Origin: Parabacteroides faecis | GTDB lineage: Bacteria > Bacteroidota > Bacteroidia > Bacteroidales > Tannerellaceae | NCBI RefSeq assembly: GCF_014647375.1 | Contig: NZ_BMPB01000011.1 | Coordinates: 203,539-267,538 of the forward strand | DNA: 64,000 bases | Direction of reading: 5' to 3' | Part shown: piece by piece, positions 10,476-30,344 of the stretch | Position numbering within the stretch: the first letter of the stretch is position 1 | How the letters are laid out: each line of letters begins with the position of its first letter | Translations under genes and position numbers: made by a program | Notes under the pieces: model-generated | The model's database searches: none | The model's input: only the letters and a program-made list of their open reading frames with translations | Told to the model about the DNA's origin: nothing

Positions 10476-11710
10476 AAATTTTTGATTTTAAAGAATACCA
10501 AAACTAGATTATCATCCTCTTTTATATTCTCGAATAATCTCATATTTTCCTCTTTTGCTGAATAATGAGTTATTTCATCTATATGTTGTTTCAATCCTTT
10601 CAGGGTTGTAGGAGGAACTAAGGCTACGAAATAATCATTATAACTGTATATGCCGCTTGAAAATTCCATGGAAAAATCCGTATCATAGTAAAATCCTGCA
10701 GTATTTACTGTTTTTTTACTTCTTTTGTCGTAAAACGAAACAAAACGCCTGTCTTGTTTGTCGCATGTCACAAACAGAATATGTGTATCATTCTCAGCAT
10801 AAATAAATAGATAAGTATGAGCTAATAGATAATTGTTAAAATCATCGTAACTTTCAAATGTTCCCATTTTATTCTTTTCGAAAGGAGTAAAATCACTGTA
10901 ATCGAATTTATACCTCATGTATAAAGCCGTATCTGTTACAGTATATACTTCATTGAGATACATAGGGGTATATAAAATTTCATCTCTTTTCCGACTTAAA
11001 GGATCGTATCCCAAAGATGAGTGAACTGTTTCTGAATAAGTACAGGCTGCTTTTTTTAAGTGTCCTAAGCTGTCAGTATATAAAATTTTATATTCGCTAT
11101 ATTGCCCTAAATGGTTGTTCCGGTCCCCTTTATCTGTGGCTGTTACATATTCACCATTAGGAAGAATTTGAAAATTGCGTCCTATTCTAAAAGGAACATC
11201 ATGGGATGCTATATAATTTCCATCTAGGGAAAATTTCATCCATTTTCTTTTTTGATTGTCATAAATGACAATTTGTTGTTGTTTTGTGTCGATTGCAAAT
11301 GCTTTTGGTAAATAGAATTCGAAAGGAGCACCACCTTTTTCTCCCAAGGCCTTTAAGAACTTTCCTTTGTTATCAAAAATATAAAGCTTCTCTGTTCCAA
11401 GTCTGTCGAATGCATAGATTTTATTATCATAAAATCCAATGTTGGTGCAATAGGCAAATAGAGATTCATCTGTTGTTTCTAGCGGAACATAATGGAATTC
11501 TTCAATCAATTCAGACGATGGAACCGGTTCTTTGATGTTATTTGTTACTTTTATAATTTCAAATTTATCTTCTTCTACCGGAATTACGGTTATACTATCT
11601 AAACTGACAGTAGGGAAAGGTCTGTTTTTCATTCTGATTTCTTGACAACCAAAACACAAAAAGCCTATTCCTAAACCTAAAATCATATTTTGTAGATACC
11701 ATTTTTTCAT
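10472..11710 (-). CDS. 6-bladed beta-propeller lipoprotein
   Basis: 412 residues from the ATG at 11710; the frame opens further up (11764) but the preferred start gives a proper lipoprotein signal, ILGLGIGFLCFGC. Seen: ELIEEFHYVPLETTDESLF near the N-terminus, the hallmark of the Bacteroidetes 6-bladed beta-propeller (BF3164-like) lipoproteins, then repeated blade-like stretches (YIFDNKGKFLKALGEKGG, FYLPKAFAID). Such proteins commonly sit beside small exported peptide genes, thioredoxin-like proteins and signal peptidases, exactly the neighbours seen here. Function of the family is unknown; likely periplasmic or surface-exposed binding. Confidence 0.8.
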   Translation of the reverse strand: MKKWYLQNMILGLGIGFLCFGCQEIRMKNRPFPTVSLDSITVIPVEEDKFEIIKVTNNIKEPVPSSELIEEFHYVPLETTDESLFAYCTNIGFYDNKIYAFDRLGTEKLYIFDNKGKFLKALGEKGGAPFEFYLPKAFAIDTKQQQIVIYDNQKRKWMKFSLDGNYIASHDVPFRIGRNFQILPNGEYVTATDKGDRNNHLGQYSEYKILYTDSLGHLKKAACTYSETVHSSLGYDPLSRKRDEILYTPMYLNEVYTVTDTALYMRYKFDYSDFTPFEKNKMGTFESYDDFNNYLLAHTYLFIYAENDTHILFVTCDKQDRRFVSFYDKRSKKTVNTAGFYYDTDFSMEFSSGIYSYNDYFVALVPPTTLKGLKQHIDEITHYSAKEENMRLFENIKEDDNLVLVFFKIKNL

Positions 11711-15485: not shown

Positions 15486-16808
15486 ATGCAATTTACGAAT
15501 AAACAAATCTGGCAGATTACCTATCCTGTACTTATCAGTTTGCTGATGGAACACATGATCGGGTTGACCGACACGGCTTATTTGGGTCGGGTAGGAGAGG
15601 TTGAATTAGGTGCATCGGCATTGGCCGGTGTGTATTACCTGGTTATTTATATGTTGGGGTTCGGCTTCAGTGTCGGAGCACAGGTTCTGATTGCCCGGCG
15701 TAACGGTGCTCACGATTATACACGGATCGGTCCGGTCTTCATGCAAGGGACACTTTTTCTGTTGTTACTTGCGGCGGTTTTATTTACCGCATCTCATTTG
15801 TATTCTCCGTTGATCCTTCGGAAACTGATTGGTTCGGACGATGTATATCGGGCTACCATGAGTTATGTCGACTGGCGTGTGTATGGCTTTTTCTTCTCTT
15901 TTATTGCCGTCATGTTCAGGGCGTTTTATGTGGGTATTACCAAGACAAAGATATTGACTGCCAACTCAGTCGTGATGGTATTGACCAATGTTGTCCTGAA
16001 TTATATCCTGATATTTGGTAAGTTCGGTTTTCCTGCATTGGGAATTGCCGGTGCGGCGATTGCTTCCTCTATTTCAGAGGCGGTGTCGGTCCTGTTCTTT
16101 ATTATTTATACCTGGAAGAAGATCGATTATAAGAAATATGCGATGTTCAGTTTTGTGGGGATCGATTTCAGGATGCTCAAACAAATATTGAATGTGTCTG
16201 TCTGGATTATGGTACAGCATGGCATTGCATTCGTGGGGTGGTTTATCTTCTTTGTGGTGATGGAGCATCAGGGAGAACGTCCGTTGGCTGTTACGAATGT
16301 GGTGAGGAGTATTTCTTCTTTTCTTTTTATGTTTGTGAATGCGTTTGCTTCCACATCCAGCTCTTTGGTCAGTAACCTGATCGGTTCCGGTAAATCGGAT
16401 CAGGTTCTGGGATTATGCGGACGTATGATACGGCTTTGTTATTTCTTCGTGCTGCCGTTAGCTATATTGATCGCCTTGTTCCCGGATTTGGTTTTGCGCA
16501 TCTATACGGATAATCCGGACCTGATACAGAGTTCGACTCCTTCTCTTTGGGTGATGCTTTCTTCTTATATATTGGCCGTTCCTGCTTTTATCTACTTTTT
16601 TAGTGTGTCGGGAACCGGGAATACACAGTCGGCACTGATGATAGATATGGCTAGTATCTTTGTGTATGTGGCTTATACATTTCTGGTCGGTATCTGGTTG
16701 CATGCCGATGTCGCTGTTTGCTGGACAACCGAACATGTTTATAACGGGATGTTGCTGATTTCGTTCTTTTATCTCTGGAAGGGAAATTGGAGGAACAAAA
16801 GGCTATAA
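15486..16808 (+). CDS. MATE-family multidrug/sodium antiporter
   Basis: 440-residue polytopic inner-membrane protein with about 12 hydrophobic helices in two related halves. Seen: N-terminal QIWQITYPVLISLLMEHMIG with TDTAYLGRVGEVELGASALA, the MATE signature start, and a second-half copy starting near LKQILNVSVWIMVQHG. MATE proteins export cationic drugs or metabolites using a Na+ or H+ gradient. Substrate unknown; DinF-like and NorM-like subgroups cannot be separated here. Own promoter, and a perfect palindrome 12 bases after the stop may end the transcript. Confidence 0.9.
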   Translation: MQFTNKQIWQITYPVLISLLMEHMIGLTDTAYLGRVGEVELGASALAGVYYLVIYMLGFGFSVGAQVLIARRNGAHDYTRIGPVFMQGTLFLLLLAAVLFTASHLYSPLILRKLIGSDDVYRATMSYVDWRVYGFFFSFIAVMFRAFYVGITKTKILTANSVVMVLTNVVLNYILIFGKFGFPALGIAGAAIASSISEAVSVLFFIIYTWKKIDYKKYAMFSFVGIDFRMLKQILNVSVWIMVQHGIAFVGWFIFFVVMEHQGERPLAVTNVVRSISSFLFMFVNAFASTSSSLVSNLIGSGKSDQVLGLCGRMIRLCYFFVLPLAILIALFPDLVLRIYTDNPDLIQSSTPSLWVMLSSYILAVPAFIYFFSVSGTGNTQSALMIDMASIFVYVAYTFLVGIWLHADVAVCWTTEHVYNGMLLISFFYLWKGNWRNKRL

Positions 16809-16820
16809 GTTTATCCTGAA

Positions 16821-16838
16821 CAAAACATATATGTTTTG
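16821..16838. terminator. Perfect 18-bp palindrome after the MATE gene
   Basis: CAAAACATATATGTTTTG is its own reverse complement, 12 bases after the stop. Could be a weak terminator stem or an operator; no T-run follows immediately. Confidence 0.4.
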
Positions 16839-16843
16839 TAATT

Positions 16844-16894
16844 AAAAGTCCCTTATTTTGAAATCAAAAGTCCTTTATTTAAAACTCAAAAGTC
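16844..16894. repeat. Three direct repeats at 22-bp spacing upstream of PUL 1
   Basis: AAAAGTC occurs at 16844-16850, 16866-16872 and 16888-16894, with the first two followed by C(C/T)TTATTT. The exact 22-bp period is about two helical turns, so three protein subunits could bind on one DNA face. Binding protein unknown; about 240 bp upstream of the inverted repeat. Confidence 0.45.
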
Positions 16895-17132
16895 AGGTCT
16901 TAACATTTCAAAGGATAGATATTTTATCCAAAGCCTACTGATAGATGGTCCGGTGCTTATCCAACTAACTTTAACATCCCCCTTGTTCCCCTCTCCGGGC
17001 ATGGAAAAGTTATTCTTGCATTATAAAAGAAAGGCTCATCTCTTTATAATGTAAGCTATTTGCGGATATAACCGGAATTTCCTATTGCCATATTTTTTCG
17101 CATTTTCATATTTGTTGTTTAAAGGTATCCTC

Positions 17133-17398
17133 AGTTCTAGTGGAACTATGTTAATTTAATCCGGATTGTTAATTGTTACAAATATCCGTATTAAATAAAA
17201 ATCACAAGTTACAAAAATGATATTTAATATAATAAAACTGGCACTATCCTTAATTATGTTCCAAAAATTATCCTGAAAACAATTACTTGATCAACTGAAT
17301 CTTTATGTGTTAATGATGTGTAAAATGATTAATGCGTTGAAATACAATGAATAGTCTCTTCCTGTGTTTGTGCTATTAACCATAGTTCCACTAGAACT
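17133..17398. repeat. Putative invertible promoter segment upstream of the PUL 1 susC
   Basis: Perfect 18-bp inverted repeat: AGTTCTAGTGGAACTATG at 17133-17150 and its exact reverse complement at 17381-17398. Each arm is itself partly palindromic (AGTTC/GAACT), as expected for recombinase half-sites. They enclose 230 bp with no ORF, and the susC start is 104 bp downstream. This is the size and placement of phase-variable invertons in Bacteroidales. No full TTTG/TAnnTTTG promoter was found pointing to susC in the present orientation. No invertase gene is in the window, so it would act in trans. Confidence 0.7.
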
Positions 17399-17502
17399 AA
17401 GAGTCAGTAACATTAATATAATTGCTTATGAAGACATAAAATGAACCTATTTAATTGTATCAATAATTAACATATTTAATTGTTAAACTTAATATCAATA
17501 TA

Positions 17503-20500
17503 ATGAATAAATCTATATACAGTAATATAAAAGGAAAAGCTGTATCCCTAACTATTCTATGTGCTTTTAGCTATACAACATCTTTCGCATCGGTTAATAT
17601 AGGAGTAGATAGGGGCAAATCGGCTTCAAGTGGGATAATACCGAATCAAAGTCAGACAACCTTTAATTTAAAAGGAAAAGTAATAGATGATATGGGAGAG
17701 CCTCTTCCCGGTGCAAATATAGTTCTTGTAGGTGGTACGAGAGGTGTTGCCACAGATATCGACGGATCGTTTGTGATCAGTGTTTCGATTGGTGAAAAAC
17801 TAACTGTTTCTTATTTGGGTATGGAAGATCAGATTATAACGGTCAAGGATAAGAAAGATCTTATAATCACGATGAGACCTAAAACAGATGAACTGGAGGA
17901 AGTGACCGTTGTCGCTTTTGCCAAACAAAAGAAAGAAAGTGTTATCGGATCTATTACTACTTTGAATCCATCGGAACTAAAAGTTCCTTCCAGTAACCTG
18001 ACTACAGCAATGGCCGGTCGTTTGGCCGGTGTGATTGCCTATCAACGAAGTGGTGAACCGGGAAAAGATAATGCCGAGTTCTTTATTCGTGGTGTGACTA
18101 CTTTCGGTTATAAAAAAGATCCTCTTATTCTTATTGATAATAATGAAGTTACCACAACGGAATTATCCCGTATTCAACCGGACGATATTGCCTCTTTCTC
18201 TATTATGAAGGATGCCACAGCAACTGCCCTTTACGGTTCTCGTGGTGCGAATGGCGTTATCTTGGTTACAACGAAAGAAGGAGCGGAAGGGGCTGCACAG
18301 GTCAGTGTCCGATTGGAAGGTTCTATGTCACAGCCAACGAAAATGGTGGAATTAGCCGATCCGATAACTTATATGCGCCTTCATAATGAAGCCGTATTGA
18401 CACGTAACCCGATGGGAGCACTACCTTATTCGCAACAGAAGATAGATAATACGATTGCCGGTGTGAATCCGTACGCTTATCCGGCTACGGACTGGTATAA
18501 CGAACTGTTCAAGAAAAATACGTTCAACTACCGTGCCAACTTTAACGTAAGTGGTGGTGGTAAAGTAGCTCGCTATTACATTGCCGGTAGTTATATTTCG
18601 GATAAGGGTGTATTGAATGTCGATAAAAAGAGTAGTTTCAATAATAATATCAACCTGAAACGATATATGCTTCGTGCCAATGTAAATATCAATGTTACTA
18701 AAACAACAGAAGCAGTCGTTCGTTTGAGTGGCGCATTTGATGACTATACCGGACCGATAGATGGTGGCGATCAACTGTTCGCTAAAGTTATGCGTACTAA
18801 CCCCGTTTTATTCGCTCCTTCTTATCCGGCAGATAAAGCCAATCAATATACCAAACATATATTATTCGGTAATGCAGATAAGGGACAGTACAACAACCCA
18901 TACGCGGATATGCTGAAAGGATATAAAGATACGCAGACATCTCAGATGGCAGCTCAGTTCGAAGTGAAGCAGAATCTGGATTTTATCACGGAAGGGCTGT
19001 CTCTTCGTGCTATGTTTAATACGAACCGATATGGCTATTTTGATGTCTCTCGTCAATATATACCATTCTTTTATAGGATAGGCTCATATAATAAGTTGGA
19101 AGATACCTATATTTTAGCACCTCTTAACGAACAGGATGGGCGGGAAACATTAGACTTTGTTCCCGGTAATAAAGTTGTTAGTTCTACAACTTATTTTGAA
19201 ACAGCAGCTAACTGGAGTCAAACTTATAATGAAAAGCATGCTGTCGGTGCTATGTTGGTTTTCACACTTCGTCAATCCCTGACTTCCGACGCCAATACAT
19301 TACAACTTTCATTACCTTCACGCAATGTGAACTTTGCCGGTCGTGCTACTTATGCTTATGATTCGCGTTACTTCCTTGAAGCAAACTTTGGTTATAACGG
19401 TTCCGAACGTTTTGCAAAAAAAGAACGTTTTGGTTTCTTCCCTTCAATGGGACTTGGTTGGCTTGTTTCCAGTGAAGCGTTCTGGAATGACGATCTGAAG
19501 AAAACGATTAATAAATTGAAACTGAAAGTTACTCACGGATTATCCGGTAACGATGCGATTGGTAGACCTGAAGACCGCTTTTTCTATATCTCGGAAGTAA
19601 ATATGAATAGCGATGGTAAGCAATCGTCGTTCGGTACCTACGGGAATTTTGGAGGACGTACGTTGAATGGTGTTTCGATTTCTCGTTATCCGAACGAAGA
19701 TATAACCTGGGAGACTGCCCGGAAAACAAACATGGGTGTAGAGTTAGGATTGTTTGATAAGTTAGAATTGCAAGCAGATTATTTTATGGAATCTCGTTGG
19801 AATATTCTAATGTCACGTGCTTCTATTCCTACTACTATGGGACTTCAGGCCGATGTAATGGCTAATGTGGGAAAAGCTAAAAGTAGTGGTATCGATCTGT
19901 CGTTGAACTATAACCACATGATCAATAATGATGCCTGGTTGACGGGGATGGCCAATTTCACTTATGCGACCAGTGAGTTTACAGCCTATGAAGAACCGGA
20001 TTACAGCGATACCCCCTGGAAATCTAAACTGGGGACTTCCCTAAATCAGAATTTCGGTTATGTAGCTGAACGTTTGTTTGCAGATGAAGAAGATATCCGC
20101 AATTCGCCGACTCAGTTTGGTAATTATATGGCCGGTGATATCAAATATAAAGATATCAATAACGATGGTAAGATTACCGAATTGGATATGGTACCGATGG
20201 GATATCCGACCAGTCCGGAAATTGTGTATGGTTTCGGTCTATCCGGAGGATATAAACAATGGGATTTGTCTTTCTTCTTTCAGGGATTGGCTCGTGAATC
20301 ATTCTGGATCGACACATCAACGGATAACGGAACTCTACCTTTCCTCAACGGACAGAATGCTTTGTTAAAAGCGTATGCAGATGATCACTGGTCTGAAGAT
20401 AATCGTAATCTGTATGCTTTGTGGCCACGTTTATCTTATGAAGCTGTAGAGAATAATCAGAAACCGTCTACCTGGTTTATGCGCAATGGTTCGTTCTTGC

Positions 20501-20703
20501 GTTTGAAATCATTGGAGTTTGGATATACTGTTCCGACCAATGTGGTTAAAAAAGCCTTTGTAAAGAACCTTCGTATCTATTTCAGTGGTACGAATCTGCT
20601 AACATTCAGTCCTTTCAAATTGTGGGATCCTGAAATGGGTGGAAATGGTTTGGGCTATCCGGTTCAGCGTGTATTCAATTTGGGAGCTCAGATTTCCTTC
20701 TAA
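17503..20703 (+). CDS. SusC/RagA-family TonB-dependent outer membrane transporter (PUL 1)
   Basis: 1,066 residues: signal sequence, a carboxypeptidase-D-like beta domain (FNLKGKVIDDMGEPLPGANI to about residue 125), a TonB-box region (LEEVTVVAFAKQKKESVIGS), a plug with RGVTTFGYKKDPLILID and ATALYGSRGANGVILVTTK, and a large beta-barrel ending in a C-terminal Phe strand. There is no N-terminal STN domain, so it should not signal to a FecR/ECF pair. It imports glycans or peptides in partnership with the SusD lipoprotein encoded 57 bases downstream. Starts at the ATG at 17503, behind the putative invertible promoter. Confidence 0.93.
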   Translation: MNKSIYSNIKGKAVSLTILCAFSYTTSFASVNIGVDRGKSASSGIIPNQSQTTFNLKGKVIDDMGEPLPGANIVLVGGTRGVATDIDGSFVISVSIGEKLTVSYLGMEDQIITVKDKKDLIITMRPKTDELEEVTVVAFAKQKKESVIGSITTLNPSELKVPSSNLTTAMAGRLAGVIAYQRSGEPGKDNAEFFIRGVTTFGYKKDPLILIDNNEVTTTELSRIQPDDIASFSIMKDATATALYGSRGANGVILVTTKEGAEGAAQVSVRLEGSMSQPTKMVELADPITYMRLHNEAVLTRNPMGALPYSQQKIDNTIAGVNPYAYPATDWYNELFKKNTFNYRANFNVSGGGKVARYYIAGSYISDKGVLNVDKKSSFNNNINLKRYMLRANVNINVTKTTEAVVRLSGAFDDYTGPIDGGDQLFAKVMRTNPVLFAPSYPADKANQYTKHILFGNADKGQYNNPYADMLKGYKDTQTSQMAAQFEVKQNLDFITEGLSLRAMFNTNRYGYFDVSRQYIPFFYRIGSYNKLEDTYILAPLNEQDGRETLDFVPGNKVVSSTTYFETAANWSQTYNEKHAVGAMLVFTLRQSLTSDANTLQLSLPSRNVNFAGRATYAYDSRYFLEANFGYNGSERFAKKERFGFFPSMGLGWLVSSEAFWNDDLKKTINKLKLKVTHGLSGNDAIGRPEDRFFYISEVNMNSDGKQSSFGTYGNFGGRTLNGVSISRYPNEDITWETARKTNMGVELGLFDKLELQADYFMESRWNILMSRASIPTTMGLQADVMANVGKAKSSGIDLSLNYNHMINNDAWLTGMANFTYATSEFTAYEEPDYSDTPWKSKLGTSLNQNFGYVAERLFADEEDIRNSPTQFGNYMAGDIKYKDINNDGKITELDMVPMGYPTSPEIVYGFGLSGGYKQWDLSFFFQGLARESFWIDTSTDNGTLPFLNGQNALLKAYADDHWSEDNRNLYALWPRLSYEAVENNQKPSTWFMRNGSFLRLKSLEFGYTVPTNVVKKAFVKNLRIYFSGTNLLTFSPFKLWDPEMGGNGLGYPVQRVFNLGAQISF

Positions 20704-20760
20704 TGAGAGTAATAACGAGTTTTGTCTTATTTGATTCTATTAATCAATAAATTAGTTTAC

Positions 20761-22698
20761 ATGAAAGCATTTTATAAAATATTAATGTTTACAGCATTAC
20801 TACAGGTATTAACCTCGTGTGACGGTTATCTGGATTTAGTTCCGGATAACGTAGCAACGGTTGAGTCGGCTTTTACGAATCGAGCTGCTGCTGAAAAGTT
20901 TTTATATACTTGTTACAGTTATCGTCCGCAGTGGGGGGATTTATTTAATGATCCGGCTATTAACGGGGGAGACGAGACATGGCAGTTTTATCCGATAGCA
21001 TCACATGTATTTCCTACTTTTACAGCTTCTTATTTGCAACGTGGTTTTCAAAAACTAGATGATCCTTATCTGAATTTTTGGGATGGTCTGCAAGGTGGTA
21101 AAGGGTTATTCATTGGTATCCGTGATTGCAATATCTTCCTGGAGAACATAGCTAGTACGGTTGATTTGGAAGAATCTGAACGTATTCGTTGGATTGCTGA
21201 AGTGAAATTCCTAAAGGCATATTATCATTATTATCTGTTGAAATGTTATGGTCCTATACCTATTATAAATGAAAACCTTCCGGTTTCTGCTTCACCTGAA
21301 CAGGTTGCGGTTTATCGTGATAAAGTGGATGATGTGGTGACTTATGTAAATGATCTGATTTTAGAAGCATTGCCAGATTTGCCGGATTATAAAGACATGG
21401 TTATGAGTCTTGAGGCAGGTCGTGTAGACAAACAGATCGCTTTGGCTGTTCGTGCAGAGATGTTAGTTATGGCAGCCAGTCCTTTGTTTAATGGCAATAC
21501 GGAAATGGCGGGACTGATAGATAATCGCGGAACAGTTTTATTTAATCAGACTTATGATCCTGAAAAATGGAAAATTGCAGCAGAAGCTTGTAAAGAAGCG
21601 ATAGAATCCTGTCATAGTGTCGGTAAGAAACTTTATACGGAAATTGAACCGATCACATTGACTCAAGATCCTGTATTTCAAATACAAACCATGTTGCGTC
21701 AGGTCGTTTGTGAACGTTGGAACTGTGAGTTGATATGGGGAGGTACAAACAGTCAATGTAATGATCGTTCCAATCATGCGACCCCTCGTGTTTTACGTGT
21801 TAATTCAGAAGTAATCAATACTATTAGTGCTCAATGGGCTCCGACAATTAAAACAGTAGAAAGTTTTTATACATCCAATGGGGTTCCTATGAACGAAGAT
21901 AAGGAATGGAATAAAGAATCTTGGTATGCAAAGCGGTATGAGTTACGTCCCGAACCTTCTTCCGGAGATGAGAAATATTTAGTCAAAGAAGGGCAGCGCA
22001 CTTGTTATATGCATTACAACCGTGAACCTCGTTTTTATGCCAGTATAGGTTTTGACCAGGGAATCTATTACGGAAACGGAAAAACTGAGTTCGAGTCATG
22101 CAATTATACCAACTTTTTGAATTTGGGCTGGTCCGGTTATCAAGGAGGTAGTTCCTATTCCATAACCGGTTACGCTCCTAAGAAAATGGCCAGTTATAAA
22201 AACGGTATTACTGCCAATAATATTTCATCTCCAGAATTTTATCCTTTTCCTGTTATCCGTTTGGCCGATCTTTATTTGCTCTATGCGGAAGCTTTGAATG
22301 AATATTCCGGTCCTTCGACAGAAGTATACGAATACATAGACCGGGTTCGTGAACGTGCCGGATTGGAAGGTGTAGTAGAGTCATGGAGTAAATATTCTAC
22401 CGATCCGTCTAAACCAACAACGAAAGATGGTTTGCGTAGTATCATTCACGGTGAAAGAACGATTGAGTTTGCGTTTGAATCCAAACGTTACTGGGATGTA
22501 CGTCGTTGGAAAGAGATCGACACTTACAATACTCAACCTCAGGGATGGAATATTATGGGTGAGACACCTGAAGACTTTTATAAATTGCAGAATGTGGCCG
22601 AGGTTCCTGTAAAAGTAACGGTGAAAGATTATTTTATGCCTATCCGGGAGACGAATATTATTACTAATAAGAATCTTATACAAAATTACGGATGGTAA
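20761..22698 (+). CDS. SusD/RagB-family surface nutrient-binding lipoprotein (PUL 1)
   Basis: 645 residues from the ATG at 20761; an upstream in-frame TTG at 20722 is disfavoured because this start gives a perfect lipoprotein signal ending LLQVLTSC. The SusD fold is evident: EVKFLKAYYHYYLLKCYGPIPII (split at YHYY) near residue 160, the TPR-like helices, and the C-terminal YIDRVRERAGL, HGERTIEFAFESKRYWDVRRW and NLIQNYGW end. It forms a lid on the SusC barrel and binds substrate at the cell surface. Confidence 0.93.
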   Translation: MKAFYKILMFTALLQVLTSCDGYLDLVPDNVATVESAFTNRAAAEKFLYTCYSYRPQWGDLFNDPAINGGDETWQFYPIASHVFPTFTASYLQRGFQKLDDPYLNFWDGLQGGKGLFIGIRDCNIFLENIASTVDLEESERIRWIAEVKFLKAYYHYYLLKCYGPIPIINENLPVSASPEQVAVYRDKVDDVVTYVNDLILEALPDLPDYKDMVMSLEAGRVDKQIALAVRAEMLVMAASPLFNGNTEMAGLIDNRGTVLFNQTYDPEKWKIAAEACKEAIESCHSVGKKLYTEIEPITLTQDPVFQIQTMLRQVVCERWNCELIWGGTNSQCNDRSNHATPRVLRVNSEVINTISAQWAPTIKTVESFYTSNGVPMNEDKEWNKESWYAKRYELRPEPSSGDEKYLVKEGQRTCYMHYNREPRFYASIGFDQGIYYGNGKTEFESCNYTNFLNLGWSGYQGGSSYSITGYAPKKMASYKNGITANNISSPEFYPFPVIRLADLYLLYAEALNEYSGPSTEVYEYIDRVRERAGLEGVVESWSKYSTDPSKPTTKDGLRSIIHGERTIEFAFESKRYWDVRRWKEIDTYNTQPQGWNIMGETPEDFYKLQNVAEVPVKVTVKDYFMPIRETNIITNKNLIQNYGW

Positions 22699-22728: not shown

Positions 22729-23925
22729 ATGAATATGAAAAATAAGATTATACTGTCTGTTATGACACTGGGTTTGATCACCTGGTCATGCAGTGAGTCA
22801 CCTGTTGGACAACAACCTCTAGATTCTATAGCTCCTGGAGCTGTATCGAATGTGAGTGTGAAAAATATTCCCGGAGGGGCTATTCTTAGTTATACTTTGC
22901 CGGATGATGAAGATTTACTTTATGTAAAAGCACTTTATGATTTGAAAGAAGGTGTCGCTGAGGCTAAAAGTTCTCTTTATAATGATACGATTAAGGTAGT
23001 AGGTTTTGGCGATACCGAACCACGTGAAGTCTCACTTATAGCAGTGGATCGGAGTCGTAATGAATCTGTCCCTGTGAAAGTAACAGTGAACCCCGAAGAA
23101 CCTCCTGTGTTAACAATCGGTAAAACACTTGATTTAGTGCAAGACTTTGGTGGTGTACAAGGACAATGGACAAATACAAATCGGGATGAAGTCACTGTTC
23201 ATATAGTACGTAAAGATGAATACGGAGATTATCAACCTTTGGAAACATTCTATACGACGGTTGTAGAAGGTAGTGGAGCTGCTCGTGGGTTGGATACAAT
23301 TCCAATGAATTTTGGAATCTATGTAAAAGATCGCTGGGGAAATGTCAGTCCGACTCTTTATAAAGAGTTGACACCTATGTTCGAAACCTCATTTGATAAG
23401 ACTAAATGGTCCGATGCTAAATTACCGAACGATATTGGTGAAGGAGTAGGTTGGGGAATGTCTCGTATATGGGATGGTATTTATGGTCCAGGTGATAATG
23501 GCTTTAGTTCGCCAGGTGGAACAGGGGTTTGGCCTCAATCGATTACTATTGATTTAGGAGCGGTAGGTAAGATCAGTCGTTTATTACTCTATCAACGTGG
23601 AGATGCCTATATTTTTTCTGAAGGAAACCTAAAACAGTTTGAAGTTTATGGTACTACAGATCTAGATCCTACGGGTAATTGGGATAGTTGGACCTTATTG
23701 GGTACTTTCGAATCTGTAAAGCCTTCAGGTCTTCCTTTAGGTCAGCATAGTTCGGAAGATGATGATGTTGCCCTTACATCTGGAGAGAATTTCATTATGC
23801 CGTTGGATGTCCCACCTGTTCGTTGGATTCGTATCAAGGTTACCAGAACTTGGGCTGGTGGTGATAACTTCCAGATTGGAGAATTGTTTGTGTTTGGAGA
23901 CAACAGATCCGAATTATATCAATAA
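22729..23925 (+). CDS. Surface lipoprotein with DUF4959-like and discoidin-like domains (PUL 1)
   Basis: 398 residues with a lipoprotein signal (LGLITWSC). An Ig-like N-terminal part (PGAVSNVSVKNIPGGAILSY, residues about 32-125) is the usual start of DUF4959 proteins; a middle beta domain follows, then a C-terminal F5/8-type C (discoidin-like) domain from about residue 220 (LPNDIGEGVGWGMSRIWDG to VRWIRIKVTRTW). In SusE/SusF position, so probably a surface glycan- or ligand-binding protein cooperating with SusC/SusD. Start may be the ATG at 22735. Confidence 0.82.
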   Translation: MNMKNKIILSVMTLGLITWSCSESPVGQQPLDSIAPGAVSNVSVKNIPGGAILSYTLPDDEDLLYVKALYDLKEGVAEAKSSLYNDTIKVVGFGDTEPREVSLIAVDRSRNESVPVKVTVNPEEPPVLTIGKTLDLVQDFGGVQGQWTNTNRDEVTVHIVRKDEYGDYQPLETFYTTVVEGSGAARGLDTIPMNFGIYVKDRWGNVSPTLYKELTPMFETSFDKTKWSDAKLPNDIGEGVGWGMSRIWDGIYGPGDNGFSSPGGTGVWPQSITIDLGAVGKISRLLLYQRGDAYIFSEGNLKQFEVYGTTDLDPTGNWDSWTLLGTFESVKPSGLPLGQHSSEDDDVALTSGENFIMPLDVPPVRWIRIKVTRTWAGGDNFQIGELFVFGDNRSELYQ

Positions 23926-23943: not shown

Positions 23944-25101
23944 ATGAAATTCAATAAAATATATTTTGTATTACTGATGCTGTTGGTGGTTGCCAGCCAG
24001 TCGTGTTCGGATATGAATGAGCTTACTGACAAGTATCTTGACGAAGGGGAGATTACTTATGCAGCGAAAGTAGATAGCGTGGGTGTCCGGGCTGGTGAGA
24101 ACCGGATTCAATTAGATGTTTATGTAAAAGCTCAACGTGTAGAAAATTTGCGCGTTTATTGGAATAATTATGAAGATTCTGTCGATGTGGAGATCGGAGG
24201 AAAGACTGGTGTTTTTCCTATTATGCTCGATGGTATGCCAGAAAGTGGATATCTGTTCCAGTTAGTCAGCTTTGATAAGTTTGGTAATCGTTCGTTAGAG
24301 TTTGAAGCTACCGGATCGTCTTATGGAGAGAGCTATAAGAACAGTCTTTCTAATCGAACTTATACTACCGAATTTACCCATTATGATGTGGAAGGCGATT
24401 CGATGGTGATCTATTGGGGAGGAACAGTTAGAGGTGCGGTTGGCATGGAGTTACAATATACTGATACTTCCGACAAAACGGTTCGCATGGAAGTTCCGGC
24501 TGATGCTACTACGACAACTCTGTATAACTTGAAGGGAAATATAAGTTACAACTCACGCTTCTTACCAGAGGAGAATGCTATAGATACTTTTATTTCTACT
24601 TCTAAAAGTATACCGGTTTATTATGAACGTCCGATAGACAAATCGAATTGGAAGATTGTCGGTTTCAGCTCAGCTTCAGCTTCCCCTGAATGGCCGGCAA
24701 CGAATGCCATCGATGGTGATATTAATACTCCTTGGCATACGGAGCATAACCCTACGGCTCCTTTCCCTCATTATTTTATTGTAGATATGGGAGAAGTGGT
24801 TGATATATCGAGTTTTGAAGTATATCGCCGTATGGATGATTCAGGTGGTGCTCAACCGACTCATCAGATATTCTATGCTGAATCGTTGGCTGATCCGACA
24901 GATGCAGATGATGCAGGCTGGATGAATTATGGCATTTACAATTTGGATAATGTAGTCGATATCCCTCAATTTTCAAGGACGGCTAATGTTGTTAAAGCAC
25001 GCTATTTCATGTATTATGTCGCTTCGAACTCTCGTTCATCGTATGCTTATATTGGTGAAATAGGGGCTTATTCTCCGGCAGGTGATGGCTTGATTCATTA
25101 G
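23944..25101 (+). CDS. Surface lipoprotein with DUF4998-like and discoidin-like domains (PUL 1)
   Basis: 385 residues with a lipoprotein signal (LMLLVVASQSC). The N-terminal half (YAAKVDSVGVRAGENRIQL, VYWNNYEDSVDVEI) matches DUF4998-type beta domains of Bacteroidetes PULs; the C-terminal quarter is an F5/8-type C domain (FSSASASPEWPATNAIDGD, PHYFIVDMGEVVDISSFEVY, FMYYVASNSRSSYAYIGEI). 18 bases after the preceding gene and last of the PUL 1 operon, with a strong terminator 26 bases downstream. Likely ligand binding at the surface; no catalytic domain. Confidence 0.82.
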   Translation: MKFNKIYFVLLMLLVVASQSCSDMNELTDKYLDEGEITYAAKVDSVGVRAGENRIQLDVYVKAQRVENLRVYWNNYEDSVDVEIGGKTGVFPIMLDGMPESGYLFQLVSFDKFGNRSLEFEATGSSYGESYKNSLSNRTYTTEFTHYDVEGDSMVIYWGGTVRGAVGMELQYTDTSDKTVRMEVPADATTTTLYNLKGNISYNSRFLPEENAIDTFISTSKSIPVYYERPIDKSNWKIVGFSSASASPEWPATNAIDGDINTPWHTEHNPTAPFPHYFIVDMGEVVDISSFEVYRRMDDSGGAQPTHQIFYAESLADPTDADDAGWMNYGIYNLDNVVDIPQFSRTANVVKARYFMYYVASNSRSSYAYIGEIGAYSPAGDGLIH

Positions 25102-25259: not shown

Positions 25260-25631
25260 ATGGATAATATATTGAAAAACAAATTACGTGAACGGGTATT
25301 GTGGTTTTGGGGATTCTTCGGTTCCAAAAGAGACAAGGTGGCATATATAAGTACAGAAGAATGGCCTTATATAGAGCGTTGGACAAACTATATTTTTGAT
25401 GATTTTCTTGTGCGACTAAGTAAGCATTATCCAAATCTTTCTCATAATGATTTGAGAATATGTTGTTTAATAAAACTAAAAGTAGATCGTTTGCATATTG
25501 CTTCATTAATGGGAATATCGCCATCCTCTGTATCTACCTGCAAGTTTAGGATTAAGAAAAAAATTGATGCAGGGAATGTTAATAAAATACTTAATCACAT
25601 GTCTTTGGAGTCATATTTATTGACTTTTTAG
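25260..25631 (+). CDS. Short LuxR/sigma-type helix-turn-helix protein
   Basis: 123 residues. The C-terminal half, DLRICCLIKLKVDRLHIASL followed by MGISPSSVSTCKFRIKKKI, matches the DNA-binding end of Bacteroidetes TPR-HTH regulators, which are normally several hundred residues with N-terminal TPRs and a membrane helix. Here only the linker and HTH are present behind a credible ATG. Either a standalone small regulator or a remnant of a longer one; no upstream in-frame continuation was seen. Sits between the PUL 1 terminator and an AT-rich island, so it could act on either. Confidence 0.62.
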   Translation: MDNILKNKLRERVLWFWGFFGSKRDKVAYISTEEWPYIERWTNYIFDDFLVRLSKHYPNLSHNDLRICCLIKLKVDRLHIASLMGISPSSVSTCKFRIKKKIDAGNVNKILNHMSLESYLLTF

Positions 25632-25975
25632 TTGATAGCGTTATAAAAAGATAAGGATATGTTATAGATGGAAATAGTAAATCTAATTCTTTCAGTATTA
25701 TTGTTTGCTAATATATTGGTCTATTAGATATTTATTCTTCATTGTCTATGTTTTTCTTTTTTGTTGTATGACTAATAAATTGATTAATAGTGTTCTATGG
25801 TGTAATGATGTGATGACTTTGTCTATCGATGAAATGTTATAATTAGATTTTTTTATTGTTTATTTGTAATGAAAAAAATGGTGATTTGATGTGTGTTGAT
25901 TTTTGAAAATAAATTTACTTTAAATGAATGATGTTTATAGAGTATTCTTATTGTTTTAATTTTAATTGATTCAAA
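25632..25975. other. AT-rich intergenic region
   Basis: 344 bases, very AT-rich, no convincing ORF, hairpin or repeat and no full promoter consensus. It marks the beginning of the low-GC island. Confidence 0.5.
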
Positions 25976-26920
25976 ATGAAAAAAAACTATTTATTATTAA
26001 GTGCTGTTTTATTACTATTTTCTTGTAGTAATGCTATTTTGCCAGATGAGGAATCGGCTGTCTCTGATTTATTAGCCCAGCCAAAGACTTGGCAGAAACA
26101 GTTAGAATATGCCCAAAAGAACAATGATCTAAAAACAAAAACAAGTTTTCAGGGGATTAGTTTTCAGGGGTATACGTACAAGGGTAAAATTGATAGAGAA
26201 GTCGATATTCCTGTAATAATTGAAGAATTACTTTCAGATAATTCGGCAATTGTTCAGTATACAGATTTAAATTTTTCAAATTTTGAGATTATTCCGATAG
26301 GGATGGTAAGGCAATCTGTGAAAACATTAAGTAGCGAAGATCCATTTTCATATCTCAAATCCCAACTACAAACTTCTATTATGATAGGAATGGAATTATT
26401 AGAGTTAGAATGGACTTACAAGGGAGATACTTTTTATTCCACAGCAATAGTCTCGAATGAACATGGTGGTCTTATTTATGATAATATAGGAATTTATATT
26501 ATTGAAAAAAGCTCTAAATTAGAGCAAAAAGATAAAGAGATAGAATTGAATGTACCATTTGTTAAAACGAAATCTGAATCTGAAGGTCCTGTAGTACGGC
26601 AGTTTAGCCAGTCAGATTCGGGACGTAATTATTATGGTCAGACGGTTTTTTCATATAGCATTAGCTGTAATTCATATTTTAATGCAGGGGTCTTATATGA
26701 TCGAAAATTAAGATCAAGTCATGATTCTGCTTTTGGATGGTCCTGTAGTGCTGATGTAAGAACAATTAGTGGTCAGATCAATATTTCAACATATCATGAA
26801 TTTGCTTGGGCATATGCTTATGGTGCAGCTTGTTCAGTATCGATTGGATGGAATGGAAATGGTTTTAAGATATCTGGAGGAGGGACTGGGTCAACTGGAA
26901 CGACAGTTCACAGACAATAA
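25976..26920 (+). CDS. Hypothetical lipoprotein of unknown family
   Basis: 314 residues with a good lipoprotein signal (LLLSAVLLLFSC). After it come a Gln/Lys-rich linker, a beta-rich central domain (about residues 60-180; GISFQGYTYKGKI, LLELEWTYKGDTFYSTAIV), a polar linker rich in Lys/Glu/Ser, and a C-terminal part with scattered Cys and aromatic residues (VFSYSISCNSYFNAGVLYD) ending in a Gly/Thr-rich tail GGGTGSTGTT. Family not recognised. Low GC, like everything to 32.3 kb. The next intact gene is 336 bases downstream. Confidence 0.6.
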   Translation: MKKNYLLLSAVLLLFSCSNAILPDEESAVSDLLAQPKTWQKQLEYAQKNNDLKTKTSFQGISFQGYTYKGKIDREVDIPVIIEELLSDNSAIVQYTDLNFSNFEIIPIGMVRQSVKTLSSEDPFSYLKSQLQTSIMIGMELLELEWTYKGDTFYSTAIVSNEHGGLIYDNIGIYIIEKSSKLEQKDKEIELNVPFVKTKSESEGPVVRQFSQSDSGRNYYGQTVFSYSISCNSYFNAGVLYDRKLRSSHDSAFGWSCSADVRTISGQINISTYHEFAWAYAYGAACSVSIGWNGNGFKISGGGTGSTGTTVHRQ

Positions 26921-27039
26921 TGAAATCTGGTGGTCAATAGTAACTGACGTAATATTGATTACTATTGATTATAGGGTTTGTAAATTATATACTCTTACTG
27001 GATATGGTTATTTTTTGATGATTAGAGAGTTGTGGTTGA

Positions 27040-27246
27040 ACTAATGGCAATGATTGTGTTAGACGTTGTGCAGAGCAAAGAAAAGCAGCGGATATGATAA
27101 CTTATTGTGCAACAGCTTTTAATATTGCAACATGCTTAGCAATTGCAGGAGCTAGTGTTACTACCTGGTGGGGGGCTGAATTTGGAATAGCAGCTGCTAG
27201 AGATTATGCACATGACAGTTATGATGTTTGTGTGAGGGGTTGCTAA
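27040..27246 (+). pseudogene. Start-less ORF with Cys-rich ends
   Basis: A frame open from 27040 (in-frame TGA at 27037-27039) to a stop at 27244-27246 encodes NGNDCVRRCAEQRKAADM, an Ala-rich central hydrophobic helix (NIATCLAIAGASVTTWWGAE) and a DVCVRGC end. The only ATG, at about 27094, would cut off the first Cys pair. The composition looks protein-like rather than random, so this is called the 3' part of a broken small gene, or a gene with an unusual start. Function unknown. The remaining sequence from 26921 to 27039 shows nothing recognisable. Confidence 0.4.
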
Positions 27247-27256
27247 ATGTATAAAT

Positions 27257-27553
27257 ATGATGAAAATGAATAAGTATATAAATCTGATTTTTTCATTGTT
27301 ATTAGTTGTTTATATGTTTGTTAGTTATATAATTACAGATGGTAGGCAGTTGTTATATGGTAGTGATAGGTTTATGACATATCTTCCTCCTATTTTAATG
27401 GTAATTACACTATATATAGCTATTGTTCATGGAAAACAAATACTTATAATGTATAAAAGTAAACAGATATATAAAGCTATATATGTGTTAATTATGACAT
27501 TGATTCTGTTATCCTTATTTATATATACAGTATTACTTTATTATAGTATATAA
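27257..27553 (+). CDS. Small three-helix membrane protein, hypothetical
   Basis: 98 residues, three hydrophobic segments (about 9-27, 42-62 and 73-95: NLIFSLLLVVYMFVSYII, YLPPILMVITLYIAIV, YVLIMTLILLSLFIYTVLLY) with short charged loops. No family recognised. Starts 10 bases after the start-less Cys-rich ORF on the same strand and is followed by another broken small gene, so it may be part of the same small-peptide module, for example as an immunity or export helper; that role is speculative. Confidence 0.5.
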   Translation: MMKMNKYINLIFSLLLVVYMFVSYIITDGRQLLYGSDRFMTYLPPILMVITLYIAIVHGKQILIMYKSKQIYKAIYVLIMTLILLSLFIYTVLLYYSI

Positions 27554-27621
27554 TTGTTGATTATACCGAATAAAAATAGTTTCATGAAAATAATTTACTA
27601 TATATTGTTTGTAACAGAAAG

Positions 27622-27818
27622 ATGAAAGATCAAATTAAATATTTGAATTTGTTATTATTTATTATTGCAATATTTGGAAGTATATTTTTTATTCCAAGTT
27701 TTTTGTTGATAGATATTATGTAATTCAATATGATTGGATACGAATGAATTGTCAAGATTGCCTTCAATTTTGTAAACGAAATGGTTATTGGAATCAAACT
27801 GGATGTCCGTTAAACTAA
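27622..27818 (+). pseudogene. Small membrane-anchored Cys-rich peptide gene with a frameshift
   Basis: ATG at 27622 opens a 33-codon frame with a transmembrane-type segment (YLNLLLFIIAIFGSIFFIP) that stops at 27721-27723. The overlapping frame continues as FVDRYYVIQYDWIRMNCQDC and then LQFCKRNGYWNQTGCPLN up to 27818. Joining them at the six-T run (27699-27704) gives one coherent product of about 65 residues: a membrane anchor followed by a tail with four Cys. Read as a slippage frameshift, either real inactivation, phase variation or sequencing error. Confidence 0.45.
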
Positions 27819-27830
27819 AATTTATATAAA

Positions 27831-28127
27831 ATGAAAGGATTTGATATATGTATTAATGATGAAAATGTTAAAGCTGGGCTTGAAGCAGGGGTGGTGGTAA
27901 TTAATATTGATGTCTATAATCGAATATCTGTTTGTGGTGTAGACTATAGTAATTTTGCATCTGTTAATTGGATTCAGTCAAAACTTAACCCTGAGGATAA
28001 GATAAAAGTAACAGTTTTAGATATTGATGAGAATTCACCATTTAGTGTTGATGTGATTGATAGACAAGAACTTCTCAAAGAGTATAAGATGTTGAAACAG
28101 GATTTAGAAAAGGAAGGATTGCTGTAA
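27831..28127 (+). CDS. Small hypothetical protein, paralogue of the next gene
   Basis: 98 residues, no signal or membrane segment, so cytoplasmic. Begins MKGFDICINDENVKAGLEAG and contains VNWIQSKLNPEDKIKVTVLDI, matching at equivalent places the next protein (MKGIEILLGKEII; YCWLESELELNDVIKLEVKEI), so the two are tandem duplicates. Family not identified. Small acidic cytoplasmic proteins in tandem next to small secreted peptides suggest immunity or inhibitor roles, which is inference. Stop and next start overlap by one base (TAATG). Confidence 0.6.
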   Translation: MKGFDICINDENVKAGLEAGVVVINIDVYNRISVCGVDYSNFASVNWIQSKLNPEDKIKVTVLDIDENSPFSVDVIDRQELLKEYKMLKQDLEKEGLL

Positions 28128-28477
28128 TGAAAGGAATTGAAATATTGTTAGGCAAAGAGATAATAGATATTGCATTAGGACATGATATTAGTATAAATGT
28201 TTGTATCTATAATAGATATGGTAAATGTTATATACAAGTATCTGGACTTGACCAAGATATGATCTCATACTGTTGGCTTGAATCTGAACTAGAATTGAAT
28301 GATGTAATTAAGTTAGAGGTTAAAGAAATAAATAAAAGTTCAGACCTTAAAGAAAAGAGGAAAATTTTTTCCAAAACTATCCTTGCTGGTAAAGAAGATA
28401 TTAAAAAAATTAATAAGGAACGTTTGGAACGTTTTCTAGTACTTGAAAAAATTTTGAAAGATGAAAATATATTATAA
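28127..28477 (+). CDS. Small hypothetical protein, paralogue of the preceding gene
   Basis: 116 residues; same N-terminal beta-rich layout as its neighbour (MKGIEILLG, ISINVCIYNRYGKCYIQVSG, YCWLESELELNDVIKLEV) with a longer Lys/Glu-rich helical tail (KEDIKKINKERLERFLVLEK). Soluble, cytoplasmic. Start coupled to the preceding stop. Function unknown; see the neighbour for the immunity-type hypothesis. A 145-base AT-rich gap separates it from the O-antigen-ligase-like gene. Confidence 0.6.
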   Translation: MKGIEILLGKEIIDIALGHDISINVCIYNRYGKCYIQVSGLDQDMISYCWLESELELNDVIKLEVKEINKSSDLKEKRKIFSKTILAGKEDIKKINKERLERFLVLEKILKDENIL

Positions 28478-28622: not shown

Positions 28623-30344
28623 GTGTTTATAAATAAATATTTTGTAGGAGTTAATAAAAAAGATATAGTTTTGAATGTAACTATCACTTTTGTTCTATTT
28701 TGTATAATGTTTTTATCATTTAAAGGATTTGTTGAGGTCAGTATACTCTCGAAGTGGTATGCTTTTGTAGCTGGGGGTATATTCTACTTCTTGATAACTT
28801 TGTTTGTGATAAAAGAAATAATTATATCTCTTGACAAAATAGTTATAATGACTATTATCTTTATATACTATTTACTCATTCATATGTGTTTAATTTCGTT
28901 AGAACAAAACAGAATATATGTATTATCAGTTATTGTTTTTATTCTATTTTATCTTTCTTTTAAGCAACTTCCTATAGGTTCTCATCAAAGTATAAATTTT
29001 ATCATACTTTGTGTATGTTTTATTCAAGCTTGTTTTGGTCTGATACAATGTATGGAGGTGTTTCATATTTATGGCTCATTTAATCTAGTTGGTAGTTTTG
29101 ATAATCCTGCAGGTTTTTCTGCTTGTCTTTCTACTGGGATTCCATTCTGCTTGTCTGTGGTAAGTAAGAAAGGAGAGAAGAATTATATTGAACTATTTCT
29201 TTTAACTATTATTGTTATATCTATAATTTTATCTGGTTCAAGAACTGGAGTTATAGCAGTATTTACTATTTTTGTTGTATACTTTAAGGATGAATGTTGT
29301 AATATTTTAGTGAATCGTAAAAAACTTATTTTACCACTATTTCTTATATTATTTATTATAATAATGGGACTATTAATTTTGAAAATAGATTCTATTATAG
29401 GAAGGTTTTTTATATGGAAAAATTCTTGTATTATGATACTTAATAAACCTATATTTGGGTATGGTACAGGTGGATTTATGAGTAACTATATGTTGTATCA
29501 AGCTGATTATTTTCAAAAAAACTCTAATACTCTATACTCTATGTTGGCAGATAATGTTATTCATCCATTCAATGAATATTTGTTTTTAACTATAGAATAC
29601 GGTATTATAGGATTAATATTAGTAATTTTAATATTGTTAGTTATAATAAAATCTTCGAGACGAATAACTATATCACATATATGTTTGCTCTCAGTTGGAA
29701 TATTTGCTTGTTTTTCCTATCCGTTACGTTATCCATTTGTTCTAGTTCTTTTAGCATATAGTTTAGCTAATATTAAAACAAAAGAGGTTTTTAGTATTTC
29801 TATTAATGTTTTAGGTAAAGTTGTTAGCATTATGTTGATTGGTATTATTAGCGCTGTTTTGGTAAATGATATACGATTTGAAAGACTTTGGGGAAATTTA
29901 GTACAAAAAAATAAATTTAGGAATAAGGAGTTATTACTTAATAGTTATGAGAAATTATATTTTGAATGGAATGGGGATCCTGCGTTTCTTTATAACTATG
30001 GGGCAATATTAAATAGAGTGGAAAGTTATGAAATAAGTAATATTATATTAAATAAGTGTACTCATTATTGGAATGATTATGATGTACAGCTTTTATTAGC
30101 AGACTGTTATCTGCAGAAAGAAAAATTTGAAAAGGCAGAGGAATGTTTTGTATTGGCTTCAAATATGTGTCCGAATCGTTTTATTCCTTTATATCAGTTA
30201 GTACATTTGTATGATCGGATTGGTCAAAAGGAAAAGGCGTATAATCTTGCTGAAAAGATTATCCATAAAAAAGTGAAGATATCTTCTTTTAAAGTTCAAA
30301 GAATAAAAAACGAAATGATAGAATATGTTCAAAAAGGACTCTAA
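28623..30344 (+). CDS. O-antigen ligase (Wzy_C) family membrane protein with C-terminal TPRs
   Basis: 573 residues from a GTG start. About ten to twelve transmembrane helices up to residue 420; the Wzy_C signature is visible as LSGSRTGVIAVFTIF, FGYGTGGFMSNYM and the periplasmic-loop HPFNEYLFLTIEYGIIG (the family's H-P-N-E-G pattern). The C-terminal 150 residues are TPR-like (DVQLLLADCYLQKEKFEKAEE, split at LQKE; FIPLYQLVHLYDRIGQKEKA). The family includes O-antigen ligases, polymerases and protein O-oligosaccharyltransferases. No lipopolysaccharide genes are near; small secreted peptides and a lipoprotein are, so a protein-glycosylating role is possible. Overlaps the next gene by 20 bases. Confidence 0.75.
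   Translation: MFINKYFVGVNKKDIVLNVTITFVLFCIMFLSFKGFVEVSILSKWYAFVAGGIFYFLITLFVIKEIIISLDKIVIMTIIFIYYLLIHMCLISLEQNRIYVLSVIVFILFYLSFKQLPIGSHQSINFIILCVCFIQACFGLIQCMEVFHIYGSFNLVGSFDNPAGFSACLSTGIPFCLSVVSKKGEKNYIELFLLTIIVISIILSGSRTGVIAVFTIFVVYFKDECCNILVNRKKLILPLFLILFIIIMGLLILKIDSIIGRFFIWKNSCIMILNKPIFGYGTGGFMSNYMLYQADYFQKNSNTLYSMLADNVIHPFNEYLFLTIEYGIIGLILVILILLVIIKSSRRITISHICLLSVGIFACFSYPLRYPFVLVLLAYSLANIKTKEVFSISINVLGKVVSIMLIGIISAVLVNDIRFERLWGNLVQKNKFRNKELLLNSYEKLYFEWNGDPAFLYNYGAILNRVESYEISNIILNKCTHYWNDYDVQLLLADCYLQKEKFEKAEECFVLASNMCPNRFIPLYQLVHLYDRIGQKEKAYNLAEKIIHKKVKISSFKVQRIKNEMIEYVQKGL

Follow-up and report, generated by a model that had tools for sequence, protein, structure and literature searches.

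What does a perfect inverted repeat do just upstream of a SusC/SusD operon in Parabacteroides faecis? The window that we analysed is a 64-kb stretch of that genome (G000:C11:203539-267538), and a sequence-only reading of it had proposed a phase-variable promoter in this place. Based on sequence comparisons within the genome and across the genus, we consider it probable (about 0.88) that 17133-17398 is an invertible promoter flipped by a tyrosine recombinase, which would switch the SusC/SusD operon on and off. The recombinase would bind the AGTTC/GAACT half-sites in both arms, pair the identical TAGTG spacers, and invert the segment in between. A single outward promoter near one arm would then point toward susC (ON) or away from it (OFF), and individual cells would thereby turn the nutrient-uptake operon on or off. 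Coordinates are collected in Table 1.

Table 1. Features of the putative invertible promoter and the operon downstream (window positions).
Feature	Position	Strand	Evidence or remark
Left arm, AGTTC-TAGTG-GAACT-ATG	17133..17150	+	Core site 17133-17147
Non-coding interval bounded by the arms, putatively inverting	17151..17380	.	Class evidence
Candidate -7 box GATATTTG, 5/6 matches to TAnnTTTG	17179..17186	-	46 nt from left arm outer end; would point at susC once inverted
Block 85% identical to the C3 paralogous element	17207..17245	-	39 bp; 60 vs 62 nt inside left arm; upstream of the GATATTTG box
Rival -7 box TGTGTTTG, 5/6 matches	17363..17370	+	28 nt from right arm outer end; faces susC now
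Right arm	17381..17398	-	Exact reverse complement of left arm; core site 17384-17398
susC, encoding a SusC/RagA TonB-linked outer membrane protein; leads the putatively switched operon	17503..20703	+	Pfam; NCBIfam name SusC/RagA
susD (SusD_RagB)	20722..22698	+	ORF taken from the first TTG behind a stop codon; true start may be downstream
DUF4959-DUF5126-DUF5000 protein	22729..23925	+	Pfam
DUF4998 and F5/8 type C domain (F5_F8) protein	23944..25101	+	Pfam

The two arms are perfect over 18 bp and lie 230 bp apart; counted outwards to 17130 and 17401, the inverted repeat extends to 21 nt at 95%. Each arm is partly palindromic, with the half-sites mirrored around the spacer. The real window contains one perfect 18-bp inverted repeat whose arms are 30-1000 bp apart, namely this one; 100 simulations of the 64-kb window under a first-order Markov model produced none. 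Upstream, a MatE protein on the plus strand ends at 16808; downstream, 104 bp separate the end of the right arm from the susC start, and the ORF list of the window holds no ORF of at least 80 aa in 16809-17502. The geometry put forward by the sequence-only reading (a perfect 18-bp repeat with partly palindromic arms, a non-coding interval of 230 bp, and 104 bp to the susC operon) was therefore confirmed. It had also described the operon as enzyme-free and without a dedicated sigma/anti-sigma pair, which agrees with Pfam: the four operon proteins and the upstream MatE protein matched no enzyme family and no sigma/anti-sigma family. Between the operon and a Wzy_C gene at 28623, the interval 25260-28477 carries several small to medium ORFs, and the five that were scanned had no Pfam match.

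The arm core recurs throughout the genome. AGTTC-N5-GAACT occurs at 66 sites in 6.66 Mb, against 1 for a reversed control pattern. Perfect pairing accounts for 45 of the 66 sites (22 pairs, one of them joined by a third site); a further 12 are paired to a site whose arm carries one or two mismatches, and 9 have no partner. Another element, with both arms imperfect, was detected by similarity on contig C3, giving 35 elements in total. This is the number found so far, since the scan was seeded from perfect sites and further doubly imperfect elements would escape it. Most of the 35 paired elements lie just upstream of a susC or sigma-factor gene. By blastp against the window SusC, with ORFs taken from their first start codon, SusC-like ORFs start within about 185 bp of 18 of 34 elements and at 350 bp from one more; a sigma-factor gene of the ECF kind (sigma-70 regions by Pfam) lies within 200 bp of seven. 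The window element belongs to this class by its two oppositely oriented AGTTCN5GAACT sites, which share one spacer, and by its position just upstream of susC. A genome search with the arm sequence had been suggested as a check, and it found the motif dispersed, yet as paired opposite sites with matching spacers and not as the plain repeat that would have spoken against inversion.

Other members of the class have longer or more complex layouts. L107:8540-9110 (G000:C10:57039-57609) has its right arm within a gene for a FecR anti-sigma factor (Pfam FecR, FecR_C) and SusC-like genes to either side, so that two systems would trade the 5' portion of that anti-sigma gene upon inversion; the same orientation was called for this element in congeners G019, G022 and G024. 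Two long elements of the same class, L111:8121-9787 (1667 bp) and L113:8431-9625 (1195 bp), hold a FecR gene and an AraC-type regulator between their arms. L108:8565-8760 (G000:C10:84064-84259) is a three-site element whose right arm is duplicated 34 bp apart.

The spacer of the window element, TAGTG, is present in both of its arms and in no other pair among the 66 perfect genome sites. When partners were sought with the arm as the sole criterion (up to one mismatch, distance 60-700 bp, spacer ignored), spacers were exactly complementary in 33 of 34 neighbour pairs of this genome, with L108 and L123 each counted twice for an extra arm; the sole exception was a stray second match near L125. Exact spacers were likewise retained in 12 of 13 pairs with one arm mismatch, the thirteenth being the stray match near L125. 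The corresponding count in 60 stretches from three congeners was 52 of 55 neighbour pairs. Variable 5-nt spacers that are identical within a pair suit the strand exchange of tyrosine recombinases. Among 43 comparisons of orthologs that matched at both flanks, the spacer was identical in 28 and different in 15 (7 loci), and all 15 differing spacers were altered in both arms together, in elements preselected for matching spacers. The idea that selection has made spacers private to each element found no support: 29 distinct spacers occur in 35 elements, where 26.5 ± 2.3 are expected from composition (P = 0.19), and five spacers are common to 11 elements.

Orientation was compared between this genome and G019, G022 and G024. 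Inner segments were inverted relative to their flanks unambiguously at four loci, two of which had both flanks matched, and a fifth locus was ambiguous. At L114/L169 (own genome and G022), both flanks matched and the inner segment scored z = 32.7 inverted vs -1.4 direct. At L168/L210 (G022 and G024), both flanks were about 95% identical and the inverted inner segment scored z = 58.2, with L183 of G019 in agreement. The other two loci were placed by one flank only: L099, inverted between the own genome and all three congeners, and L108/L195, inverted between the own genome and G019. An inversion called at L123/L167 was withdrawn because its flanks are susC paralogs that match either way (reversed 367 and 702 bits, collinear 284 and 518), and three other rows that scored as inverted were paralog comparisons. 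Many of the remaining pairs had the same orientation, and many were beyond calling. The window element itself had no ortholog in 39 genus genomes including its own, where its own copy and short matches were all that was returned; no such paired repeat was found, either, upstream of the susC relatives inspected (29 of 79 loci, some with little upstream sequence).

The -7 box of Bacteroides promoters is described as TAnnTTTG (PMC4747536). In 21 of 34 own elements it stands at one end, 28-34 nt in from the outer edge of the arm, and in 0 of 34 at both ends; the other 128 positions between 15 and 149 nt hold 7 boxes in total. Among 54 elements of the congeners, 30 have the box at one end, 1 at both ends and 23 at neither. 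Set against the gene table by eye, 18 own boxes (the 21 box-bearing elements without the unclear cases L104, L105 and L110) divide into 14 that face away from the susC or sigma-factor gene and 4 that face toward it. Paired sites, spacer identity, inverted orthologous segments, and a box at one end only make promoter inversion well supported for the class, and from membership in that class we infer it for the window element. The central claim of an invertible promoter is thus supported, by a genome-wide family of paired sites before susC and sigma-factor genes and by oppositely oriented orthologs in congeners.

Which way the window element is turned is harder to read. No perfect TAnnTTTG facing susC lies within 20-59 nt of the right arm outer end, in line with what the sequence-only reading had noted; the nearest is the 5/6 box TGTGTTTG. 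A class promoter matrix scored -5.9 at the right end and -15.2 at the left end, both poor. The matrix spans positions 27-35 only, with the left box (at 46) outside it, and its best right-end position is not TGTGTTTG. In the C3 paralog, GATTTTTG is the only 5/6 box within 20-59 nt; it lies 48 nt from the end that faces away from the paralog's susC, and no 5/6 box points toward that susC over the same range. We lean toward the left-arm box GATATTTG as the promoter, and toward OFF as the captured state, because the paralog has its sole 5/6 box at the same end and the 85% identical block at the same offset. The preference is a modest one because 5/6 boxes are common, with at least one at 20-59 nt in 42 of 68 arm ends, and because the matrix scores are poor at both ends. 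The earlier suggestion of an OFF state is therefore plausible from the shared box position and upstream block, and weakened by how often such boxes occur.

The poor boxes also raise the question of whether the switch still works. In a worn-out inverton, the arms would persist after the promoter had decayed, and inversion would no longer alter susC expression. Neither end of the window element has a full TAnnTTTG at 20-59 nt, and the element is one of 13 of the 34 own elements without a box at 28-34 nt, as such decay might leave them. However, its arms are both perfect over 18 bp and its spacers match, whereas 12 of the 34 elements have a mutated arm, and its box position and upstream block are common to the C3 paralog; we regard a worn-out element as unlikely. 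It is highly improbable that the arms are merely a dispersed repeat, or the binding site of a dimeric regulator, and undergo no inversion. A regulator site might be palindromic outside the spacer and present in 66 copies, 9 of them without a partner, but regulators do not need a second copy, about 130-600 bp distant, in which the same spacer is inverted, and orthologous segments were found inverted.

If the segment does invert, the enzyme might be a serine recombinase of the Mpi type and not a tyrosine recombinase. Variable, pair-matched 5-nt spacers are generally known to suit tyrosine recombinases. The arm AGTTCTAGTGGAACTATG also lacks the repeat given for Mpi, ARACGTTCGTN (PMC8375218), so that we find an Mpi-type enzyme very unlikely here, even though Mpi is described as a global invertase of scattered promoters in Bacteroides fragilis (PMC4747536) and our recombinase survey covered Phage_integrase (tyrosine) matches.

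For the preferred tyrosine-recombinase mechanism, the enzyme of the window element is probably the recombinase encoded at G000:C3:454683-455873, a 397-aa protein with Arm-DNA-bind_5, Phage_int_SAM_5 and Phage_integrase domains that is unlinked to the window element. Two queries singled it out: one with seven recombinases joined, run on 16 genomes, and a single one run on 39. Our confidence goes no further than this because 13 of the 23 Phage_integrase matches in the genome were outside the set of ten that served as queries (the XerD-like L138; the L139-L141 triple; L144, L146, L147, L150, L151, L153, L156, L158 and L159). Full-length orthologs of at least 59% identity occur in 19 of 39 genus genomes, own included, with stop codons flagged in the matched stretch of those in G012 and G026. 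All four of the most site-rich genomes (45-66 sites) carry an ortholog. Among the 36 genomes with site counts, the ratio of sites to control was at least 2 in 10 of the 18 gene-bearing genomes and in 1 of the 18 others (Mann-Whitney P = 0.011, uncorrected for relatedness). The gene-less exception is G004, with 21 sites, and 8 of the 18 genomes with the gene have no site excess; some genomes scored as gene-less hold partial matches (e.g., G005, 68% over 282 aa).

An invertase beside similar arms had been named as something to look for. An AGTTC pair lies about 5 kb from the candidate gene in all five gene-bearing congeners with listed sites (G012, G033, G016, G017 and G023), but the own-genome context has none. 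The nearest named homolog in a plasmid collection (77.6%) is WP_005855634.1 of Parabacteroides distasonis, annotated as 'site-specific integrase', which also sits among susC/susD genes with an AGTTC pair about 5 kb away. The neighbour gene rarA is common to that record (by product name) and to the recombinase context (by ORF reading). Across ten contexts of the recombinase, a susC-like gene lies within a few kb in all ten; an AGTTC pair falls within only two (G033 and G012) and is absent near the gene in eight, including the own genome.

A related motif, AGTTC-N5-AGACT, occurs at 12 sites across eight of the ten contexts and is absent from L293 and from the own context L288, which stops at a contig end. 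Nine AGTTC-TGCAA-AGACT sites (one with CGCAA) were checked for frame: seven start cut susC cassettes and two lie in full-length susC. As read from these motifs, the susC shufflon appears to share its half-site and the length of its spacer with the promoter elements. At L288:12711-15551, the end of G000 contig C3, the contig breaks off within the susC cluster next to the candidate invertase; a shufflon may have disrupted the assembly there. It is about an even chance that one shufflon invertase runs a genome-wide switchboard, in which AGTTC is the constant half-site and the 5-nt spacer an address. The susC cassettes with TGCAA would shuffle mutually, solitary promoters with other spacers would flip alone, and the two arms would drift together so that each switch stays self-compatible.

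Other recombinases were rejected or set aside. C1:630546 (L155) is present in the four site-rich genomes (75-76% in the three congeners) but was rejected for its own local inverted repeat of another motif, and C23:12608 (L153) also carries its own local repeat. C1:365538 (L142) was rejected for having close orthologs (62-64%) in G033 and G061 only, and C3:184754 (L157), with its near kin L156 and L158, has relatives of 94% and 77% in G022 and of at most 67% elsewhere among the matches listed. For six of the seven proteins in the joined query against 16 genomes, the matches listed were patchy in five cases, and XerC was in all 16 and thus uninformative.

Two tyrosine recombinase genes have local inverted repeats, CTTATTT-NTG-AAATAAG (L263:9976-10419 and L267 at about 10530-10940). 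The first of these repeats is kept in G019, G022 and G024; a gene for a protein with an HU-type DNA-binding domain follows it in the own genome. Such local Tsr switches, whose own promoter lies beside the recombinase gene, resemble the window element in that inverted repeats enclose a short intergenic segment and a tyrosine recombinase, a probable one in our case, acts on them; they differ in that the two local genes here use CTTATTT-NTG-AAATAAG and not AGTTC sites.

Among systems already described, one of the closest is Tsr0667 of Bacteroides fragilis, a single tyrosine recombinase reported to shuffle three SusC/SusD clusters and invert nine other, scattered regions (PMC4747536). Our candidate likewise lies in a susC cluster and the AGTTC half-site recurs at scattered promoters, a likeness in gene setting; about 35 elements are found here, compared to the three clusters and nine other regions reported there. 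A shufflon overlapping susC start codons has also been described (PMC5729914). The Mpi capsule promoters of B. fragilis share the principle of one enzyme flipping many promoters, most of them away from its gene, and differ in recombinase (serine), repeat, and target (capsule) (PMC4747536, PMC8375218). A 2025 survey defines inverton group 131, with 72 invertons, 68 of them in Bacteroidota, enriched near TonB receptors and SusD, and its account of the group gives no significantly linked invertase group (PMC11892184). As described there, group 131 has the same kind of target gene and a Bacteroides-type promoter motif inside the segment, a likeness by description and not by comparison of repeat motifs (PMC11892184).

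The window element itself is one more case of a known kind. What is newer is the reading of spacers as addresses and the assignment of the enzyme; neither was encountered in the passages returned by full-text literature searches, a scope that leaves key papers outside. Invertible promoters that diversify SusC/SusD uptake are a known hedging route in gut Bacteroidales, and this genome shows the depth to which it can run, with about 35 like elements. If group 131 is the same class, the C3 recombinase is a candidate master enzyme for invertons that the survey left without a linked invertase. The switchboard reading, if true, would give a large class of SusC/SusD invertons the invertase that it lacks, and the spacer rule would allow one to predict which switches cross-recombine.
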